From positions 7,661,913-7,725,912 of the forward strand of contig NZ_KK073874.1 in assembly GCF_000585375.1 (NCBI RefSeq): a stretch of DNA of 64,000 nt. Direction: 5' to 3'. Under the pieces are notes generated by a model that was not told the DNA's origin, made no database searches, and saw only the letters and a program-made list of their open reading frames with translations. This DNA comes from Cryptosporangium arvum DSM 44712 (GTDB lineage: Bacteria > Actinomycetota > Actinomycetes > Mycobacteriales > Cryptosporangiaceae). Position 1 is the first letter of the stretch. The number at the start of each line of letters is the position of its first letter. Both the position numbers and the translations under genes were made by a program. Shown here in pieces: positions 21,559 to 60,444 of this stretch.

Positions 21559-21807
21559 ATGGACTGGCGCCACCGCGCCCTCTGCCGCGACGAGGACCCG
21601 GAGCTGTTCTTCCCGATCGGGACGACCGGCCCGGCTCTGCTCCAGGTGGATGAGGCGAAGGCTGTCTGCCGCCGCTGTTCGGTCACGGAGTCTTGTCTCC
21701 AGTGGGCGATCGAGTCGGGTCAGGACGCCGGCGTGTGGGGCGGTATGAGCGAGGACGAACGTCGGGCGCTCAAGCGGCGTAACCGGCAGCGGGCCCGCAC
21801 CGCCTGA
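21559..21807 (+). CDS. whiB1: WhiB1, iron-sulfur transcriptional regulator
   Basis: 82-aa [4Fe-4S] WhiB protein that binds SigA region 4; essential and nitric-oxide-responsive in mycobacteria. The four cluster Cys are visible: ALCRDEDPELFFPIG, then CRRCSVTESC, followed by the G(V/I)WGG turn in SGQDAGVWGGMSEDERRALKRRNRQ. The start DWRHRALC and the end are near-identical to WhiB1 orthologues. AAGGAG is 8 bases before the ATG. The neighbour pdtaS is the same as in mycobacteria. Confidence 0.96.
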   Translation: MDWRHRALCRDEDPELFFPIGTTGPALLQVDEAKAVCRRCSVTESCLQWAIESGQDAGVWGGMSEDERRALKRRNRQRARTA

Positions 21808-21827
21808 AACCTTCGCACGAGCCTGAC

Positions 21828-34722: not shown

Positions 34723-35118
34723 TCAGTTCTCCCGGTGGAGGGAGTCGGCCCGTTCCGCCCGGGCGCGTGCGCTCGTGAACGACGTCGGTGCGCCGGCCAC
34801 CCCGGTGCGATTCCGCCATGCCACCAGCATGGCGCGCCGCTCCCGGGGCGTCGTACCGCCCCAGACTCCTTCGCAGTCGCCGGCGTTCAACGCGGCCGCG
34901 AGGCAATCCGCCTGCACGTCACAGGAATGGCAGAAGCTGAGCGCCGGATCCGCCGGTTCGGTGGGAAGTGGGAAGAACGTCTCCGGGTCGACGGTGCGAC
35001 AGCGTCCGCGTGTGCGCCACGTGGGGTCGGCGGGGCGTGCCGCCCTCGCCGCCAGCAACCGGGGATCGCGGCTCGCCGCGAGCACCTCATGTGGCCTCGG
35101 CAGCCTGGCCCGAGTCAC
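34723..35118 (-). CDS. WhiB family regulator (orphan paralogue)
   Basis: 131-aa WhiB protein. The four cluster Cys are in GRCRTVDPETFFPLP and CHSCDVQADC; the turn is EGVWGGTTPRERR. A 45-residue Arg/Ala-rich N-terminal extension and a 25-residue tail distinguish it from WhiB1, WhiB2 and WhiB7 types, and there is no AT-hook. GTG 35118 with AAGGAG upstream is preferred to starts further out. Role unknown. Upstream of and co-directional with the hydrolase. Confidence 0.88.
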   Translation of the reverse strand: MTRARLPRPHEVLAASRDPRLLAARAARPADPTWRTRGRCRTVDPETFFPLPTEPADPALSFCHSCDVQADCLAAALNAGDCEGVWGGTTPRERRAMLVAWRNRTGVAGAPTSFTSARARAERADSLHREN

Positions 35119-54645: not shown

Positions 54646-55683
54646 ATGCGCCCGCTCCTCCTGCCCGCTCTGTCCCGGCTCTGGCGGGACGCCACGACGC
54701 TGCAGCTCGGCGTCGATCCCGAGCGCGCGACCGTGCTCACCGCCGTCGATTCCGGCCTGGCCGGCTTCCTCACCGCGCTCGATGGCCGGCGTTCGCTGCC
54801 GGAGGTGCTCGCCACCGCGCCGGCCGGCCTCGCCGGTGAATCCCTGATCCGCCTCCTGGTGGCCCGGGGCGCAGTCGTCGACGCCGATCATCTCGTCCCC
54901 CGCGCCGGCGCCCCGCTCCCGCCGCTCCCGGCAGAGCTGGCCTCCGCGCTGCTCACGCACGGTTCGGGCGCCGTCGGCCGGGTCCGGGCCCGGCGCCACG
55001 CGCACGTGCTGGTGCGGTGCCGCGGGCGCGTGGGGCCGGTGATCGCCGCGTTGCTCGCGGCCGCCGGTGTCGGGCGGGTCGTGGTCTCCGGCTCCGGCGT
55101 GGTCACACCGGACGACGTCACGGTCGGCGGCCTGCGCCCCGACGACGTCGGCCGCCCCTACCTGCTGGCGGCGATCGACGCGGTACGCCGGGCGGCACCC
55201 GCGGTCGACACCCGGCCGCTCGACGCGGCGCCGGACTTCGTGGTGCTCGCCGCCGGGCCGGTGCCACCGCCCGCGGATCAGGTGCGCTGGATGTCCGGCC
55301 GCGTCCCCCATCTGCCGGTGCTCCTCCGGGACGGGGTGGCGATCGTCGGGCCGCTCGTCCTGCCGGGCCGCACCGCCTGCCTCACGTGTGTCGAGGCTCA
55401 CCGAACGGATCGTGACCCGGTCTGGCCCGTGCTCGCCGCCCAGCTCGCGACCGACCCCCGCCCGGAACCCGCCGAGACCGTCGTGATCAGCTCGGCCGCC
55501 GCGCTCGCATCCACCGAGGTCATCGGCCGGTTGGAGGGTGCCGCCACCGCGGCGCTCGGGGTTTCGCTCGAGGTCGGGCCACCCGGCGTCCCGTTGCGGC
55601 ACCGCGTCTGGACACCCCACCCGCGATGTGACTGCCTCCGCGACGGGCAGGTCCGCGAAGAGCGCGCGACAATGGTCAGGTGA
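54646..55683 (+). CDS. E1-like (ThiF/TOMM leader-binding type) protein
   Basis: 345-aa protein. Residues 1-75 look like a small winged-helix/leader-binding domain; residues 115-345 follow the E1/ThiF fold (GVGRVVVSGSGVVTPDDVTVGG, LRPDDVGRPYLLAAIDAVRR, DFVVLAAG), and GRTACLTCVEAHRTDRDP with CDCL near the end give a likely zinc site. The Gly-rich ATP loop of active E1 enzymes is not visible, so it probably does not adenylate. Databases call such proteins TOMM precursor leader peptide-binding. Its stop overlaps the ABC1 kinase start. Confidence 0.78.
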   Translation: MRPLLLPALSRLWRDATTLQLGVDPERATVLTAVDSGLAGFLTALDGRRSLPEVLATAPAGLAGESLIRLLVARGAVVDADHLVPRAGAPLPPLPAELASALLTHGSGAVGRVRARRHAHVLVRCRGRVGPVIAALLAAAGVGRVVVSGSGVVTPDDVTVGGLRPDDVGRPYLLAAIDAVRRAAPAVDTRPLDAAPDFVVLAAGPVPPPADQVRWMSGRVPHLPVLLRDGVAIVGPLVLPGRTACLTCVEAHRTDRDPVWPVLAAQLATDPRPEPAETVVISSAAALASTEVIGRLEGAATAALGVSLEVGPPGVPLRHRVWTPHPRCDCLRDGQVREERATMVR

Positions 55684-56990
55684 CCGACATCCCCCGGCGG
55701 GCGTTCACCCGCACCGCCAAGCTCGCGGCTCTGCCGCTGGGAATGGCGGGCCGCGCCACCCTCGGTATCGGCAAGCGCCTCGGCGGCGCTCCGGCCGAGG
55801 CCGTCGCCCGCGAGGTCCAGCAACGCACCGCCGAACAGTTGTTCAGCGTCCTGGGCCAGCTCAAGGGCGGCGCCATGAAGTTCGGCCAGGCGCTGTCGAT
55901 CTTCGAGGCGGCGTTCCCGGAGGAGGTCGCCAAGCCGTACCGGGCCGCGCTCACCAAGCTCCAGGAAGCGGCGCCGCCGATGCCGGCCGCGACCGTGCAC
56001 GGTGTGCTAGCCGAGGAACTGGGCCCGGAGTGGCGCACCAAGTTCCGCGAGTTCGACGAGAGCCCCGCCGCCGCGGCGAGCATCGGGCAGGTGCACCGCG
56101 CGGTCTGGTCGTCCGGCCGGAACGTCGCGGTGAAGATCCAGTACCCCGGCGCGGGCCCGGCCCTGATCGCCGACCTCAACCAACTCGGACGCCTGGCCCG
56201 GCTGTTCACCGTGCTGCAGCCCGGCCTCGACATCAAGCCGCTGGTGGCCGAGCTGAAGGCCCGGGTGGCCGAGGAACTCGACTACCACCTCGAGGCCAAG
56301 GCCACCCGCGCGTTCGCGAAGGCCTTCCGGGACGATCCGGAGATCGCGGTGCCCCGGGTGCTGGCGGGCACGTCACGGGTGCTGGTCACCGACTGGATCG
56401 ACGGCACACCGCTCTCCGAGGTGATCGCGACCGGCTCGCCGGAGCAGCGCAACCTCGCCGGCGAGCGGATGGCCGTTCTCCACTTCTCCGCACCGGCCCG
56501 CACGAAGCTGCTGCACGCCGACCCGCACCCGGGCAACTTCCGGTTGCTCCCCGACGGGCGGCTCGGGGTGCTCGACTTCGGCGCGGTGGCCCGGCTCCCG
56601 AACGGGCTGCCGGAGCCGGTCGGCCGGCTCGCCCGGCTCGCGCTCGAAGGCGACGCCCAGGGCGTGCTCGAGGGCCTGCGTGACGAGGGCTTCGTGAAAC
56701 GGGACGCCGACGTCGACGCGAAAGAGCTGCTCGAGTACGTGCGCCCGATGCTCGACCCGATGGCCGAGGACGAATTCCAGTTCTCCCGGGCCTGGCTGCG
56801 CAAGGAAGCCGCCCGGCTCGGTGATCCCCGCAGCCCCGCCTACCAGCTGGGGCGCCAGCTCAACCTGCCGCCGAGCTATCTGCTGATCCATCGGGTGACG
56901 CTCGGATCGATCGGGGTGCTCTGCCAGCTCGAAGCCAAGGCGCACTACCGGTCGGTCGTCGAGCGATGGCAGCCGGGTTTCGTCGAATAA
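55680..56990 (+). CDS. ABC1/AarF/UbiB family atypical kinase
   Basis: 436-aa ABC1 kinase: KGGAMKFGQALS (KxGQ motif), PAAAASIGQVHRA (Ala-rich nucleotide loop), VAVKIQYPG (Lys), EELDYHLEA, VLVTDWIDGTPL, LHADPHPGNFRLL and VLDFGAVARLP (DFG). Soluble, no C-terminal helices. UbiB relatives act in quinone or lipid handling; the mycobacterial counterpart next to whiB7 is Rv3197. GTG start overlapping the E1-like gene by 4 bases. Confidence 0.93.
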   Translation: MTDIPRRAFTRTAKLAALPLGMAGRATLGIGKRLGGAPAEAVAREVQQRTAEQLFSVLGQLKGGAMKFGQALSIFEAAFPEEVAKPYRAALTKLQEAAPPMPAATVHGVLAEELGPEWRTKFREFDESPAAAASIGQVHRAVWSSGRNVAVKIQYPGAGPALIADLNQLGRLARLFTVLQPGLDIKPLVAELKARVAEELDYHLEAKATRAFAKAFRDDPEIAVPRVLAGTSRVLVTDWIDGTPLSEVIATGSPEQRNLAGERMAVLHFSAPARTKLLHADPHPGNFRLLPDGRLGVLDFGAVARLPNGLPEPVGRLARLALEGDAQGVLEGLRDEGFVKRDADVDAKELLEYVRPMLDPMAEDEFQFSRAWLRKEAARLGDPRSPAYQLGRQLNLPPSYLLIHRVTLGSIGVLCQLEAKAHYRSVVERWQPGFVE

Positions 56991-56996
56991 TCGAAG

Positions 56997-57024
56997 GGCC
57001 CGCCCCTGAAAACAGGGGCGGGCC
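56997..57024. terminator. Terminator between ABC1 kinase and whiB7 operon
   Basis: GGCCCGCCCCTG and CAGGGGCGGGCC pair perfectly (12 bp, loop AAAA) between convergent genes. Confidence 0.75.
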
Positions 57025-57039
57025 AGGGAAAACGACCGC

Positions 57040-57291
57040 TCAGAGGCGGTCCCGGAGACGGGCAGCAGCCGCGGCTACGACGCGGGCCGGCCGACGGGCA
57101 CCCATGCGGGCGCGTCGCGGCGCGGCCTGTTGCATTCGGGATCGGGCCAGGGCTTCGTTCAGAAGTAACATCTCGAAACTCCAGGTCGGTTCGTGGTTCA
57201 AGGCGGTGCTCATCTCGGGCGCTGCGGGGTAGGGGGCGAGTCCGCGGCCGATCCGTCCGGACCGGTAGTGCGCGGTGTGGGCGCGGCTCAT
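57040..57291 (-). CDS. Small basic protein coupled to whiB7 (83 aa)
   Basis: Unknown. Its ATG shares a base with the whiB7 stop (TGATG), so it is translated with whiB7. Sequence: SRAHTAHYRSGRIGRGLAPY, WSFEMLLLNEALARSRMQQA, then an Arg/Ala-rich tail. The helical LLLNEALARSRM core and basic tail suggest a nucleic-acid or ribosome contact, but this is a guess. Confidence 0.65.
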   Translation of the reverse strand: MSRAHTAHYRSGRIGRGLAPYPAAPEMSTALNHEPTWSFEMLLLNEALARSRMQQAAPRRARMGARRPARVVAAAAARLRDRL

Positions 57292-57575
57292 CAGGCTGCG
57301 ACCGTGTTCTTGCGGGGACGACCACGGGGCCGCTTCCGTGCGATCACGGCACCGCGCTCGAAGATTTCGCCACCCCAGACACCCCAGGGCTCGCGCCGCT
57401 CGAGCGCACCCTGCAGGCACGCCTCACGGAGCGGGCACTCCTGGCAGTGGGCCTTCGCTACTTCGAGGTCAGCGGGGGTCTCCGCGAACCAGAGCTCAGG
57501 GTCTTCCCGCCGGCAGGGCAGCGCTTCATCCGGGTCGATCACCCCGAAGTCCGGGGCGAGATCGATTGCCGTCAT
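57291..57575 (-). CDS. whiB7: WhiB7, antibiotic-response regulator
   Basis: 94-aa WhiB protein that with SigA switches on intrinsic antibiotic resistance genes. Four Cys: LPCRREDPELWFAE, CQECPLREAC; the WhiB7-specific turn EPWGVWGGEIF and the C-terminal AT-hook KRPRGRPRKN are both present. ATG 57575 with GAGGAG upstream. It lies behind a long leader with an intrinsic terminator (attenuator) and an AT-rich WhiB7-type promoter, and beside uvrD2 as in mycobacteria. Confidence 0.96.
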   Translation of the reverse strand: MTAIDLAPDFGVIDPDEALPCRREDPELWFAETPADLEVAKAHCQECPLREACLQGALERREPWGVWGGEIFERGAVIARKRPRGRPRKNTVAA

Positions 57576-57636
57576 GACCGGATCTCCTCTTCCGTCGTGC
57601 ATTCGTTGTCAGTCGGTTGGACGGGGACAAACAAAA

Positions 57637-57669
57637 AGGCCGTGGATCCCGGTATGGGATCCACGGCCT
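57637..57669 (-). terminator. Attenuator terminator in the whiB7 leader
   Basis: AGGCCGTGGATCCC and GGGATCCACGGCCT form a perfect 14-bp stem (loop GGTAT). Read on the - strand it is followed by TTTTTGTTTG, a full intrinsic terminator, 60 bases before the whiB7 start. Termination here in the absence of antibiotic is the known control of whiB7/wblC. Confidence 0.85.
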
Positions 57670-57711
57670 CGAGGAGTGCCGCCGGTCTTTTAGACCGGTT
57701 CACCTCGAGGC
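57670..57711 (-). promoter_or_regulatory. Candidate antiterminator hairpin next to the attenuator
   Basis: CCGGTC-TTTTA-GACCGG (57682-57698) is flanked by two CCTCGAGG-type sequences that can pair with each other, directly upstream (on the - strand) of the terminator. The stop codon of the upstream ORF (57690) falls inside the loop, so ribosome position would decide its folding. Confidence 0.55.
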
Positions 57712-58046
57712 GGAGATCCCGCGCGACCATCGACGCGCGTGGCGCCGATGCTCAGCTGGGTCTGGACCTGAGTGCCGAAGGACTCGACCACTGCGCCGGT
57801 GAGCGCGGAGGCCGGGGCCGCCAAGGGGGCAGAGTTCTCCCCATTGACCAGGGACATGTGCTGCGCAGCGCAGACGACATGCGCATACGCAGGCGCGCCG
57901 GACGGCGCGATCCGCTTCCGCGCTGCCGAGACACCGGTGGTCATCGCTGTGCCTGCGTGCGCAGCCACAGCGGCCAGCGGGCCATCAGCAAGACGCCACG
58001 ACGACATGGCGGTGCCCCGAAGCTTCGGAGTCATGAAGCTGATCAC
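57690..58046 (-). CDS. Putative upstream ORF of whiB7 (118 codons)
   Basis: Open frame from GTG 58046 (AGGGTGGTGG upstream) to TAA at 57690 within the leader. The GC-biased third positions support translation, but the peptide (ISFMTPKLRG..., Ala-rich) has no family. Its stop lies in the hairpin before the terminator, as expected for a ribosome-sensing leader ORF. Shorter starts (ATG 58034, or later internal ATGs) are possible; known whiB7/wblC leader ORFs are much shorter. Confidence 0.4.
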   Translation of the reverse strand: MISFMTPKLRGTAMSSWRLADGPLAAVAAHAGTAMTTGVSAARKRIAPSGAPAYAHVVCAAQHMSLVNGENSAPLAAPASALTGAVVESFGTQVQTQLSIGATRVDGRAGSPPRGEPV

Positions 58047-58131
58047 TGGGACCACCACCCTTCGGTGCGCTAAAAAGCCCTGCCAAAACCAGACTCCTGG
58101 AATCGGCGCGCCGGTTCCCCGGCGCACAGGC

Positions 58132-58170
58132 AGGTTAAGCCCGGGCCGGGTCCCTGGCCAACCTATTTTT
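58132..58170 (-). promoter_or_regulatory. WhiB7-type promoter of whiB7
   Basis: On the - strand: AAAAAT (58170-58165), 3 bases, TTGGCC as -35 (58161-58156), an 18-base spacer and TAACCT as -10 (58137-58132). An AT-rich patch 3-5 bp upstream of the -35 is what the WhiB7 AT-hook recognises, so this promoter is probably autoregulated. It sets a leader of about 550 nt. Confidence 0.65.
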
Positions 58171-58257
58171 CGGCCAGAACTCGGCAGCTGTCTGCCACCC
58201 GACAGTCGGCACGGCGCGTTGCGCCCGACACGCCGCTGAATCCGCCGTAAAACGAAC

Positions 58258-60444
58258 TCAATCCGCTTCGGAAATTGTCACGAGCGACGCCGGATCGGCG
58301 CCACCGACGATCGCCAGCAACGCCGAGCCGTACAGCGTCAGCTTGCGCGGGCCGACCCCGGCGATCTCGGCCAGCTGCGCCTCGCTCGAGGGCTGCAACT
58401 CGGCCACCGCGGTCAGCGTCGCGTCGGTGAACACGACGTAGGGCGGCAGTTTCTGCTCGCGGGCCAGCGCTCCGCGCCACGTCCGCAGCCGCTCGTAGAG
58501 CTCTTCGTCGTAGTTGGCCGGGCAGTCACCGCAGCGGCGCAGCTTGCGGTGCGTCGGGTCGAACAGCGCGACCCCGCAGATCCGGCAGGTGGGCAACGAC
58601 CGCGACGCGGGCCTCGCCGCCGGCTTCACCGACGGAGCGACCGAGGTGCCCGGTACACCGGCCGGGAGCGCTCCGGCGGGCAGGAACCGGCACGGCCGCC
58701 GGCTTCCCCGGCCGCCCGGCGAGCGGGCCGCGGCCCACGACAGCCAGAGATGCTCGCGCGCCCGCGTGACGCCGACGTAGAGCAGCCTGCGCTCCTCCTC
58801 GAGCTGCGCCGGCGTCTTGGCGTGCGTGATCGGCAGCGTGCCCTCGGCCAGGCCGACCAGGAACACCGCGTCCCACTCCAGGCCCTTCGCCGCGTGCAGC
58901 GAGCCGAGCGTCACACCGTCCACGGTGGGGACGTGCTGCGCGGCGGCGCGGGCCGCAAGCTCCTCGACGAACCGCGGAAGCCCCTCGGCGGCGGGAGTGT
59001 CGGCGCCGACCGTCTCGTCCGCGAGCCGCAGCAGCGCGGCGAGCGACTCCCAGCGTTCGCGGGCGGCGCCACCGGCCGGGGGCGCGTCCGCACGCCAGTC
59101 CAACCCCGACAGCGCGCCCTGCACCGCGTCCACCGTGGAGGACGCCTCGTCGCTCTGCGCCGCCCTGGCCGCACCCCGCAGGAGCAGCATGGCCTCCCGG
59201 ACCTCGGGCCGTTCGAAGAAGCGCTCGCCGCCCCGCACGACGTAGGGCACCCCGACGTCGGCCAGCGCCTGCTCGTACGTCTCGGACTGCGCGTTGATGC
59301 GGAAGAGCACGGCGATCTCCGCCGCCGGAACCCCGGAGCGGAGCAGCTCGCGGCAGCGGGCCGCGACCGCACCGGCCTCGGCCGGCTCGTCGGGGTAGTG
59401 CGAGACGCGAGGCTTGGGGCCGGGTGCGCGTTGCCCGATCAGCTGCAGGCGGACGGCGGCCTCGACGCCGCGCCCGGCCGCGATCACCTCGTTGGCGAGG
59501 CCGACCACCTGGGGCGTCGAGCGGTAGTCCCGCTCCAGCCGGATCACGACCGCGCCGCGGTGCCGGCGTGGGAAGTCGATCAGGTAGGACGCGTCGGCGC
59601 CGGTGAACGAATAGATCGTCTGGCTCGCGTCGCCGACGACGGTCAGGTCGTCGCGCCCGCCGCACCACGCCTCGAGCAGCCGCTGCTGCAGCGGGTTGAC
59701 GTCCTGGTACTCGTCGACGACGAAGTGCCGGTACTGCGCCCGGATCTGCTCGGCGACGTCGCGGTGCTCCTCGATCGCCCAGATCGTCGCGCGCAGCAGG
59801 TCCTCGAAGTCGATGACGCCCATCCGGCGCTTGAGCTGTTCGTAACCGGCGTAGACCGCGGCGACCTGATCGGGCGGCAGCGGTGTCTCCCGCGCCGTGT
59901 CGGCCACCGCGGCCACGTAGCCGTCGGGCTCCACCATCGCGGACTTCGCCCACTCGACCTCGGACGTCAGGTCACGGACGCCGGTGCGGTCGAGCTTCAC
60001 GCGCTGATGCGTCGCCGCCTGGCCGACCACGCGTGCCTTCGTCTCGAGCAGTTCCGGCATCGCCCGGCCGTCGAACACCCGGGGCGCGAAGTACCGCAGC
60101 TGACGCAGCGCCGCCGCGTGGAACGTGCGTGCCTGGACGCCGGAGACCCCGAGCGCCCGCAACCGACCCCGCATCTCCCCCGCGGCGCGCGCGGTGAATG
60201 TCACGGCGAGTACATGATTGGGCGCAGTTGCCTGGGTCAACACTCCATGGGCAATGCGATGCGTGATCGCCCGGGTCTTACCGGTGCCCGCTCCGGCGAG
60301 GATGCAGACCGGCCCACGGGGGGCCAGCACCGCCGCCCGCTGCTCGTCGTCCAGACCGGCCAGTACGGCAGCGGGGTCGACGAGACGGGTGTCCACGGAC
60401 GCGGCGGGGGTGACGGTCACCCGTCCGATACTGCCACTGCCCAC
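58258..60444 (-). CDS. uvrD2: ATP-dependent DNA helicase UvrD2
   Basis: Superfamily 1 3'-5' helicase, 728 aa. Q-motif GLDDEQRAAVLAP, Walker A LAGAGTGKTRAITHR, motif II VVDEYQDVNPLQQ, DASQTIYSFTGAD, motif IV ERDYRSTPQVV, GSLHAAKGLEWDAVFLVGL and YVGVTRARE; then a four-Cys zinc knuckle (CRICG, CGDC, about 600-625) and a C-terminal HRDC domain, the layout of mycobacterial UvrD2. The start is GTG 60444 or GTG 60420; both lack a clear ribosome site. Divergent from mrx1 across 66 bp. Confidence 0.95.
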   Translation of the reverse strand: MGSGSIGRVTVTPAASVDTRLVDPAAVLAGLDDEQRAAVLAPRGPVCILAGAGTGKTRAITHRIAHGVLTQATAPNHVLAVTFTARAAGEMRGRLRALGVSGVQARTFHAAALRQLRYFAPRVFDGRAMPELLETKARVVGQAATHQRVKLDRTGVRDLTSEVEWAKSAMVEPDGYVAAVADTARETPLPPDQVAAVYAGYEQLKRRMGVIDFEDLLRATIWAIEEHRDVAEQIRAQYRHFVVDEYQDVNPLQQRLLEAWCGGRDDLTVVGDASQTIYSFTGADASYLIDFPRRHRGAVVIRLERDYRSTPQVVGLANEVIAAGRGVEAAVRLQLIGQRAPGPKPRVSHYPDEPAEAGAVAARCRELLRSGVPAAEIAVLFRINAQSETYEQALADVGVPYVVRGGERFFERPEVREAMLLLRGAARAAQSDEASSTVDAVQGALSGLDWRADAPPAGGAARERWESLAALLRLADETVGADTPAAEGLPRFVEELAARAAAQHVPTVDGVTLGSLHAAKGLEWDAVFLVGLAEGTLPITHAKTPAQLEEERRLLYVGVTRAREHLWLSWAAARSPGGRGSRRPCRFLPAGALPAGVPGTSVAPSVKPAARPASRSLPTCRICGVALFDPTHRKLRRCGDCPANYDEELYERLRTWRGALAREQKLPPYVVFTDATLTAVAELQPSSEAQLAEIAGVGPRKLTLYGSALLAIVGGADPASLVTISEAD

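Follow-up and report, generated by a model that had tools for sequence, protein, structure and literature searches.

In actinobacteria, WhiB7 has a central role in regulating intrinsic antibiotic resistance. Its gene in Cryptosporangium arvum DSM 44712 is preceded by a long leader that carries an upstream open reading frame (uORF) of 118 codons. How would such a leader control whiB7, and does its long frame make it a variant of the switch known for whiB7/wblC? The analysis covers a 64,000-nt stretch of the genome (the window) and whiB7 loci of relatives. The WhiB domain of the gene is matched by PF02467 in Pfam (E 1e-15), and the best matches in three congeners, one from each, are 97-98% identical to the protein. 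The residues RGRPRK and EPWGVWGG are read in the sequence, and we take them to be the AT-hook and the turn. Upstream of it, at 58258-60444, lies the gene of a UvrD-type helicase that has an HRDC domain, and downstream a convergent ABC1-kinase gene (55680-56990), presumably the same gene order as uvrD2-whiB7-ABC1 kinase in mycobacteria. Two more WhiB-family genes lie in the window. The one at 21580-21810 (+) is 51% identical to the WhiB7 core and the one at 34810-35004 (-) is 34% identical. A TGA reported within the WhiB match of the former looks like the end of that gene.

In this leader, transcription of whiB7 is very probably attenuated under the control of the ribosome, in the manner of the known whiB7/wblC uORF attenuators. 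Its parts are collected in Table 1. The preliminary description of this DNA had placed AAAAAT three bases upstream of a TTGGCC/TAACCT promoter, and these elements are found there on the minus strand. The leader length of about 550 nt that it gave also holds, counted to the whiB7 ATG at 57575 and assuming a start around 7 nt after the -10 box. Its ORF of up to 118 codons, with the TAA in the loop of a hairpin, was recovered from GTG 58046 to TAA 57692-57690, as was the perfect 14-bp intrinsic terminator 60 nt before whiB7, in which 57669-57656 pairs with 57650-57637. The uORF stop lies 22 nt before the terminator stem. The stop codon is indeed located inside the antiterminator, as had been proposed, but the antiterminator extends beyond the stop hairpin, pairing 57720-57702 with 57674-57656.

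Table 1. Features of the whiB7 leader and gene, in coordinates of the window.
Feature	Position	Strand	Description
AT-rich element AAAAAT	58165..58170	-	Candidate WhiB7/WblC binding site, 3 nt before the -35
-35 TTGGCC	58156..58161	-	Read in the sequence
-10 TAACCT	58132..58137	-	18-nt spacer from the -35
5'-terminal hairpin GCGCCGG-GGAA-CCGGCGC	58108..58125	-	At the presumed (assumed) transcription start
Degenerate Shine-Dalgarno before the uORF	58052..58063	-	GAAGGGTGGTGG; two congeners have GGGAGGTGG
uORF	57690..58046	-	GTG start 58046, 118 codons, stop TAA 57692-57690
Antiterminator 5' arm	57702..57720	-	GGGATCTCCGCCTCGAGGT; within the last uORF codons
Stop hairpin CCGGTC-TAAAA-GACCGG	57682..57698	-	uORF TAA in its loop
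Antiterminator 3' arm	57656..57674	-	CCTCGAGGCCGTGGATCCC; overlaps the terminator 5' arm
Intrinsic terminator	57632..57670	-	14 perfect pairs plus one G-U, U tract
Shine-Dalgarno of whiB7	57584..57592	-	GAAGAGGAG
whiB7	57291..57575	-	94 aa; ATG 57575; WhiB domain, four Cys, EPWGVWGG turn, AT-hook RGRPRK

The promoter is conserved, TTGGCC and TTAACCT being present in all three congeners. The published WblC motif is GAAAWY, located 3 nt before the -35 (excerpts of PMC7157823). AAAAAT matches it at five of six positions and is, judged by sequence only, a candidate site; the congener L003 carries GAAAAT at the same promoter position. An AT-rich run followed after 2-5 nt by TTG and then by a TANNNT -10, the whole situated 20-180 nt before the uORF, precedes 198 of 206 uORFs; in mononucleotide shuffles, such a pattern precedes 0.5 of 206 on average. 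Among sampled promoters, the commonest six-mers 3 nt before TTG are AAAAAT (45) and GAAAAT (43), and an exact GAAAWY is found in 50 sampled promoter matches. The 5'-terminal hairpin is kept in the three congeners, with loops GGAA or GAGA, and across 198 loci the first 32 nt of the presumed mRNA have a mean energy of -10.60 kcal/mol, compared with -7.95 kcal/mol in shuffles. This hairpin is possibly an mRNA-stability element.

Folding of the leader exceeds chance, with z of -5.15 for the part 58118-57632 and -4.52 for the last 104 nt. When the terminator 3' arm is withheld, the minimum-energy fold is the antiterminator, in which GGGATCTCCGCCTCGAGGT pairs with CCTCGAGGCCGTGGATCCC and the stop hairpin is enclosed (-41.0 kcal/mol for an 80-nt stretch). 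In the finished leader at equilibrium, the terminator is favoured even without a ribosome, and read-through must therefore be kinetic. A scan of 56500-59500 against 4227 Rfam families (E <= 5) gave no match inside the leader, which rules out an Rfam RNA as its explanation. Both matches of that scan fall within 56997-57058, in the interval that separates the convergent whiB7 and ABC1-kinase genes. The one to the KDPG-aldolase RNA family, on the plus strand, is below threshold (22.9 bits for a gathering score of 54.6, E 0.25) and is probably a chance match on terminator-like hairpins.

The relatives support GTG 58046 as the predicted start of the uORF. It aligns with GTG-ATC in the three congeners and with a GTG in L005, a locus of the same family as the window, and the uORF counted from the aligned GTG has 118 codons in the window, 122, 96 and 116 in the congeners and 100 in L005. 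This GTG fails the automatic Shine-Dalgarno test, which lists only starts giving 121 and 44 codons. The survey rule picks GTG 58055, nine bases upstream, with a Shine-Dalgarno score of 4; its choices in the congeners score 7, 7 and 4. The window is thus entered in the survey with 121 codons, because GAAGGGTGGTGG does not pass the test. In the stretch 58046-58063 (-), the Shine-Dalgarno is degenerate, GGGTGGTGG as against GGGAGGTGG in two congeners; weaker initiation from it might raise the basal read-through. The uORF product, scanned as the longer 145-aa frame, has no match in Pfam or NCBIfam.

The same arrangement is found in nearly all whiB7 leaders surveyed. The survey comprised 236 whiB7 loci including the window, giving 232 unique leaders, with the paralogous WhiB loci L031-L035 excluded. 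A strong terminator (below -15 kcal/mol within 330 nt) is present in 212 of the 232. Of the 20 without one by the detector, two are truncated where their contig ends and six belong to the 23 named Mycobacterium loci; the terminators of these six may have escaped the U-tract rule. An ORF behind a Shine-Dalgarno, with its stop within 75 nt before the stem, occurs in 209/212 leaders, and the stop lies 16-35 nt before the stem in 203 of these 209 candidates. With the stop required at 10-40 nt, 207/212 remain. The stop codons of the 209 are TGA (102), TAG (85) and TAA (22).

The lengths of the 207 uORFs range from 23 to 202 codons, with quartiles of 63.5, 78 and 95.5; one start per ORF was picked by its Shine-Dalgarno score, and single lengths may be off. 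Fifteen of the 207 reach at least 118 codons, and the idea of the 118-codon uORF as exceptional was rejected, as it belongs to the long tail of an ordinary distribution. An 11-member Streptomyces-like group (f33, the label being a guess) has uORFs of 90-110 codons. The uORF described here is longer than those of the named Mycobacterium whiB7 loci (42-67 codons in 16 of 17 scored, a length shared by some loci of other groups) and is near the long end of the family. By the automatic rule, uORFs of 138-160 codons are found in L221, L234, L235 and L237 (f32) and in L130 (f43), and one of 202 codons in L178; the other f32 loci are shorter. The stop within a hairpin is likewise not special to this genome, with at least four enclosing pairs in 192/207 loci, a measure that is weak alone because shuffles already give 0.76 (mean energy -9.93 versus -5.59). 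The preliminary description had seen in the long ORF with its built-in stop a variant of the switch, which is not borne out by a median of 78 codons and a usual stop position. Its recognition of a whiB7 attenuator with an AT-hook-type promoter is upheld by the anatomy, the survey of terminators and uORFs, and the promoter pattern.

The antiterminator helix covaries. Its eight-pair core was examined in an alignment of 43 rows, chosen from the 232 for breadth with the named Mycobacterium loci left out; L012, L014, L026 and L239, dropped from an earlier 39-row version as having no obvious arm, were restored for this count. In the core, 36 cells are changed on both sides, versus 17.3 in shuffles, and the covariation score is 0.306, versus 0.207 in shuffles and at most 0.181 in slid controls. 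None of 500 shuffles equalled either value. Two of the five measures are less exceptional, namely the count of doubly changed pairs (6, reached in 104/500 shuffles) and that of further pair types (15, reached in 6/500). The change from CTCGAGG/CCTCGAG to CTGGAG/CTCCAG is visible by eye. In the terminator, seven of 13 pairs are invariant and three are changed on both sides, and the stop hairpin of the congener L003 shows a compensatory replacement of T-A by C-G. Complementarity of the arms was also scored locus by locus, free of any alignment, against 60 shuffles each. It is equalled by at most three shuffles in 116/207 loci (around 13.6 expected) and by at most one in only 85/207 (median z -1.9); in many loci, the complementarity alone is no better than in shuffles.

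From these elements, we infer the following order of events, with the progress of the ribosome as the signal. The WhiB7-type promoter would deliver a leader carrying a long translated uORF. A ribosome abreast of the RNA polymerase would reach the stop codon and mask the antiterminator 5' arm, contained in the last ~10 codons, so that the terminator would form and whiB7 would be off. Under a translation inhibitor or an amino-acid shortage, the ribosome would be held upstream of roughly the last 14 codons, and the free 5' arm would pair with the terminator 5' half, allowing the polymerase to read through. The WhiB7 made in this way would boost its own promoter (autoactivation).

The masking step was modelled on the nascent RNA up to the terminator 5' arm, with a ribosome at varied uORF positions. 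When the ribosome occupies the stop, the terminator 5' arm has a mean pairing of 0.39; the value is 0.79 for a ribosome 14 codons upstream and 0.85 for one 16 to 30 codons upstream. A ribosome 1-12 codons short of the stop already gives 0.61-0.73, so the threshold is soft near the stop. The free energies of the model, -4.4 for a ribosome at the stop and -40.9 for one 16 codons upstream, give no clean contrast because the values rise with the length of the free RNA.

A uORF attenuator of whiB7/wblC has reportedly been described in Streptomyces and Mycobacterium, by Lee in 2022, Burian and Thompson in 2018 and Dinan in 2014. Ribosome-controlled attenuation is published for whiB7/wblC in the available passages of PMC11550727, PMC10727445 and PMC13393426, and an antiterminator sharing sequence with the uORF and the terminator is mentioned in the accessible part of the introduction of PMC10727445. 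The leader described here has in common with that system, as excerpts of PMC10727445, PMC4128351, PMC11550727 and PMC7157823 present it, the WhiB7-type promoter site, the long leader, the uORF ending at an intrinsic terminator and the antiterminator formed from sequence shared by uORF and terminator. In the window, whiB7 lies downstream, the site with predicted binding is placed 3 nt before the -35, the uORF with predicted translation ends before the terminator, and the antiterminator pairs the uORF end with the terminator 5' arm. No difference in kind from the whiB7/wblC attenuator was found.

The frame of the uORF is under selection, its peptide hardly. Whole leaders were aligned as nucleotides, ignoring the ORF of the partner; 970 candidate pairs were reduced to 372 (110 loci) by identity (0.72-0.985) and coverage, and 47 disjoint pairs were taken greedily, the most similar first. 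In the 372 pairs, 691 of 810 gaps inside the uORF (85%) have lengths that are multiples of three, compared with 85/387 in the 5' leader, 49/224 between stop and terminator, 9/196 in the terminator and 297/939 in the spacer between terminator and whiB7. A uORF gap of any other length is absent from 289 of these pairs and present in 83. Of the 78 indels within the uORF in the 47 disjoint pairs, 72 are multiples of three, versus 36 of 141 in the 5' leader and spacer (Fisher p 4.6e-23). This ORF-blind count supersedes a first one (396/416, 95%), set aside as partly circular because both ORFs had been chosen with whole-codon lengths. Only one premature stop is found in 3407 codons with 1354 base differences, whereas random placement of the same changes gives 19.0 on average and 8 at the least in 200 runs. 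Together with the covariation of the helices, these counts establish the conservation of ORF frame and hairpins in relatives on which the preliminary description had made its reading depend.

It is hardly conceivable, then, that the uORF is a chance open frame, with termination governed by the hairpins alone (or by Rho, or by a ligand). GC-rich DNA often contains long open frames, the uORF has no protein-family match, and its pN/pS is near 1. Even so, the frame has withstood indels and stops to a degree far above chance, and of the 47 partners 46 have a start codon where the uORF start aligns and 45 have a stop codon where its stop aligns. The composition of the uORF is also protein-like, with a GC content of 0.681, 0.597 and 0.814 at codon positions 1, 2 and 3.

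The drift of the peptide is seen in the same 47 pairs, in which the changes at codon positions 1, 2 and 3 number 439, 436 and 472. The pN/pS of the uORF is 0.81 in the true frame and 0.87 and 0.97 in the wrong ones; the start of whiB7, as a positive control, gives 0.24 (1.91 and 1.90 in its other frames). Taken one by one, seven clades have a uORF pN/pS of 0.72-0.94 versus 0.08-0.32 for whiB7. Nucleotide identity is 0.858 in the uORF middle versus 0.845 in the spacer. The peptide is not wholly free, and along the uORF pN/pS goes from 1.07 in the first 12 codons through 0.79 in the middle to 0.61 in the last 12, this lowest stretch coinciding with the antiterminator arm. A five-member family alignment showed no conserved codon run outside the last uORF codons. 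Such a selection pattern was not found reported for the whiB7 uORF in the available parts of the open-licence literature, a scope that does not include Lee 2022.

These values bear on an arrest-peptide attenuator, in which a specific nascent uORF peptide would stall the drug-bound ribosome, as erm leader peptides do. The selection on the frame, the better conservation of the last 12 codons and the enrichment in alanine treated below would agree with it. However, the sequence is nearly unconstrained and substitutions are near equal across the three codon positions, the first 12 codons have a pN/pS of 1.07, and the conservation of the end is that of the antiterminator arm. Purifying selection on the peptide, as expected of the erm type, was not found (0.81, with 0.24 for whiB7), and this explanation appears improbable.

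The uORF also has a modest tilt to alanine, which makes up 24 of its 118 codons in the window. In the uORF cores, alanine reaches 18.6% in frame versus 10.9% and 10.4% in the other frames. Compared with the longest open frame of each locus, a mechanical choice that need not be a gene in every case, the uORF has 16.7% versus 13.3% and is higher in 63/105 loci (Wilcoxon p 0.0017). The tilt is compatible with the response of whiB7 to alanine starvation, as cited in the available text of PMC10727445 and PMC11550727. Both the in-frame excess and this published response would suit an amino-acid-specific attenuator tuned to the alanine supply, the drug response being its by-product. This is nonetheless rather unlikely, as the excess over the longest open frame is small, L005 from the same family has 12 alanines in 100 codons, no more than its other frames, and the published inducers span many drug classes.

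A frame that is kept while its peptide drifts suggests that what the cell senses is translation as such rather than any particular peptide, which favours sensing of ribosome progress over an arrest peptide. The chances seem about even that the uORF serves as a sequence-agnostic ribosome odometer, kept open, in frame and long, with its peptide free. Slowing anywhere along the ~100 codons would let the polymerase outrun the ribosome, and the length would set the sensitivity. In an illustrative race model with assumed speeds, a 1.25-fold slowing gives an escape of 0.87 at 118 codons versus 0.22 at 25. Without slowing, the escape is 0.28 versus 0.15, a higher value that would be the cost of a long uORF.

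The leader would share with the attenuators of amino-acid biosynthesis (trp, ilvB leader type) the selection between terminator and antiterminator by the position of the ribosome in the uORF. The uORF of the trp leader is short, with few regulatory codons, as is that of the ilvB1 leader in the available passages of PMC13236596. In contrast to those attenuators, the frame here is long. With the erm, vmlR, toiL and are5sc/tiaA switches it would have in common a uORF that senses ribosome-targeting drugs and frees the downstream gene. The erm leaders are short uORFs in which ribosomes stall at fixed codons. For toiL, are5sc and tiaA, too, short reading frames and stalling at defined codons are described (excerpts of PMC12121999 and PMC12421871). 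Unlike these leader peptides, the whiB7 uORF keeps its frame and hardly its sequence. Antibiotic stalling of ribosomes within the whiB7 uORF was untested as of 2025, according to the accessible text of PMC12121999.

From a frame that is kept around a nearly free peptide, one expects the switch to need no specific stalling motif and the length of the uORF to set the threshold; the loci with uORFs of 138-202 codons offer a place to test length against sensitivity. A general sensing of translation progress fits the breadth of the inducers, and the odometer, if true, would account for the response of a single uORF to many drug classes as well as to starvation.
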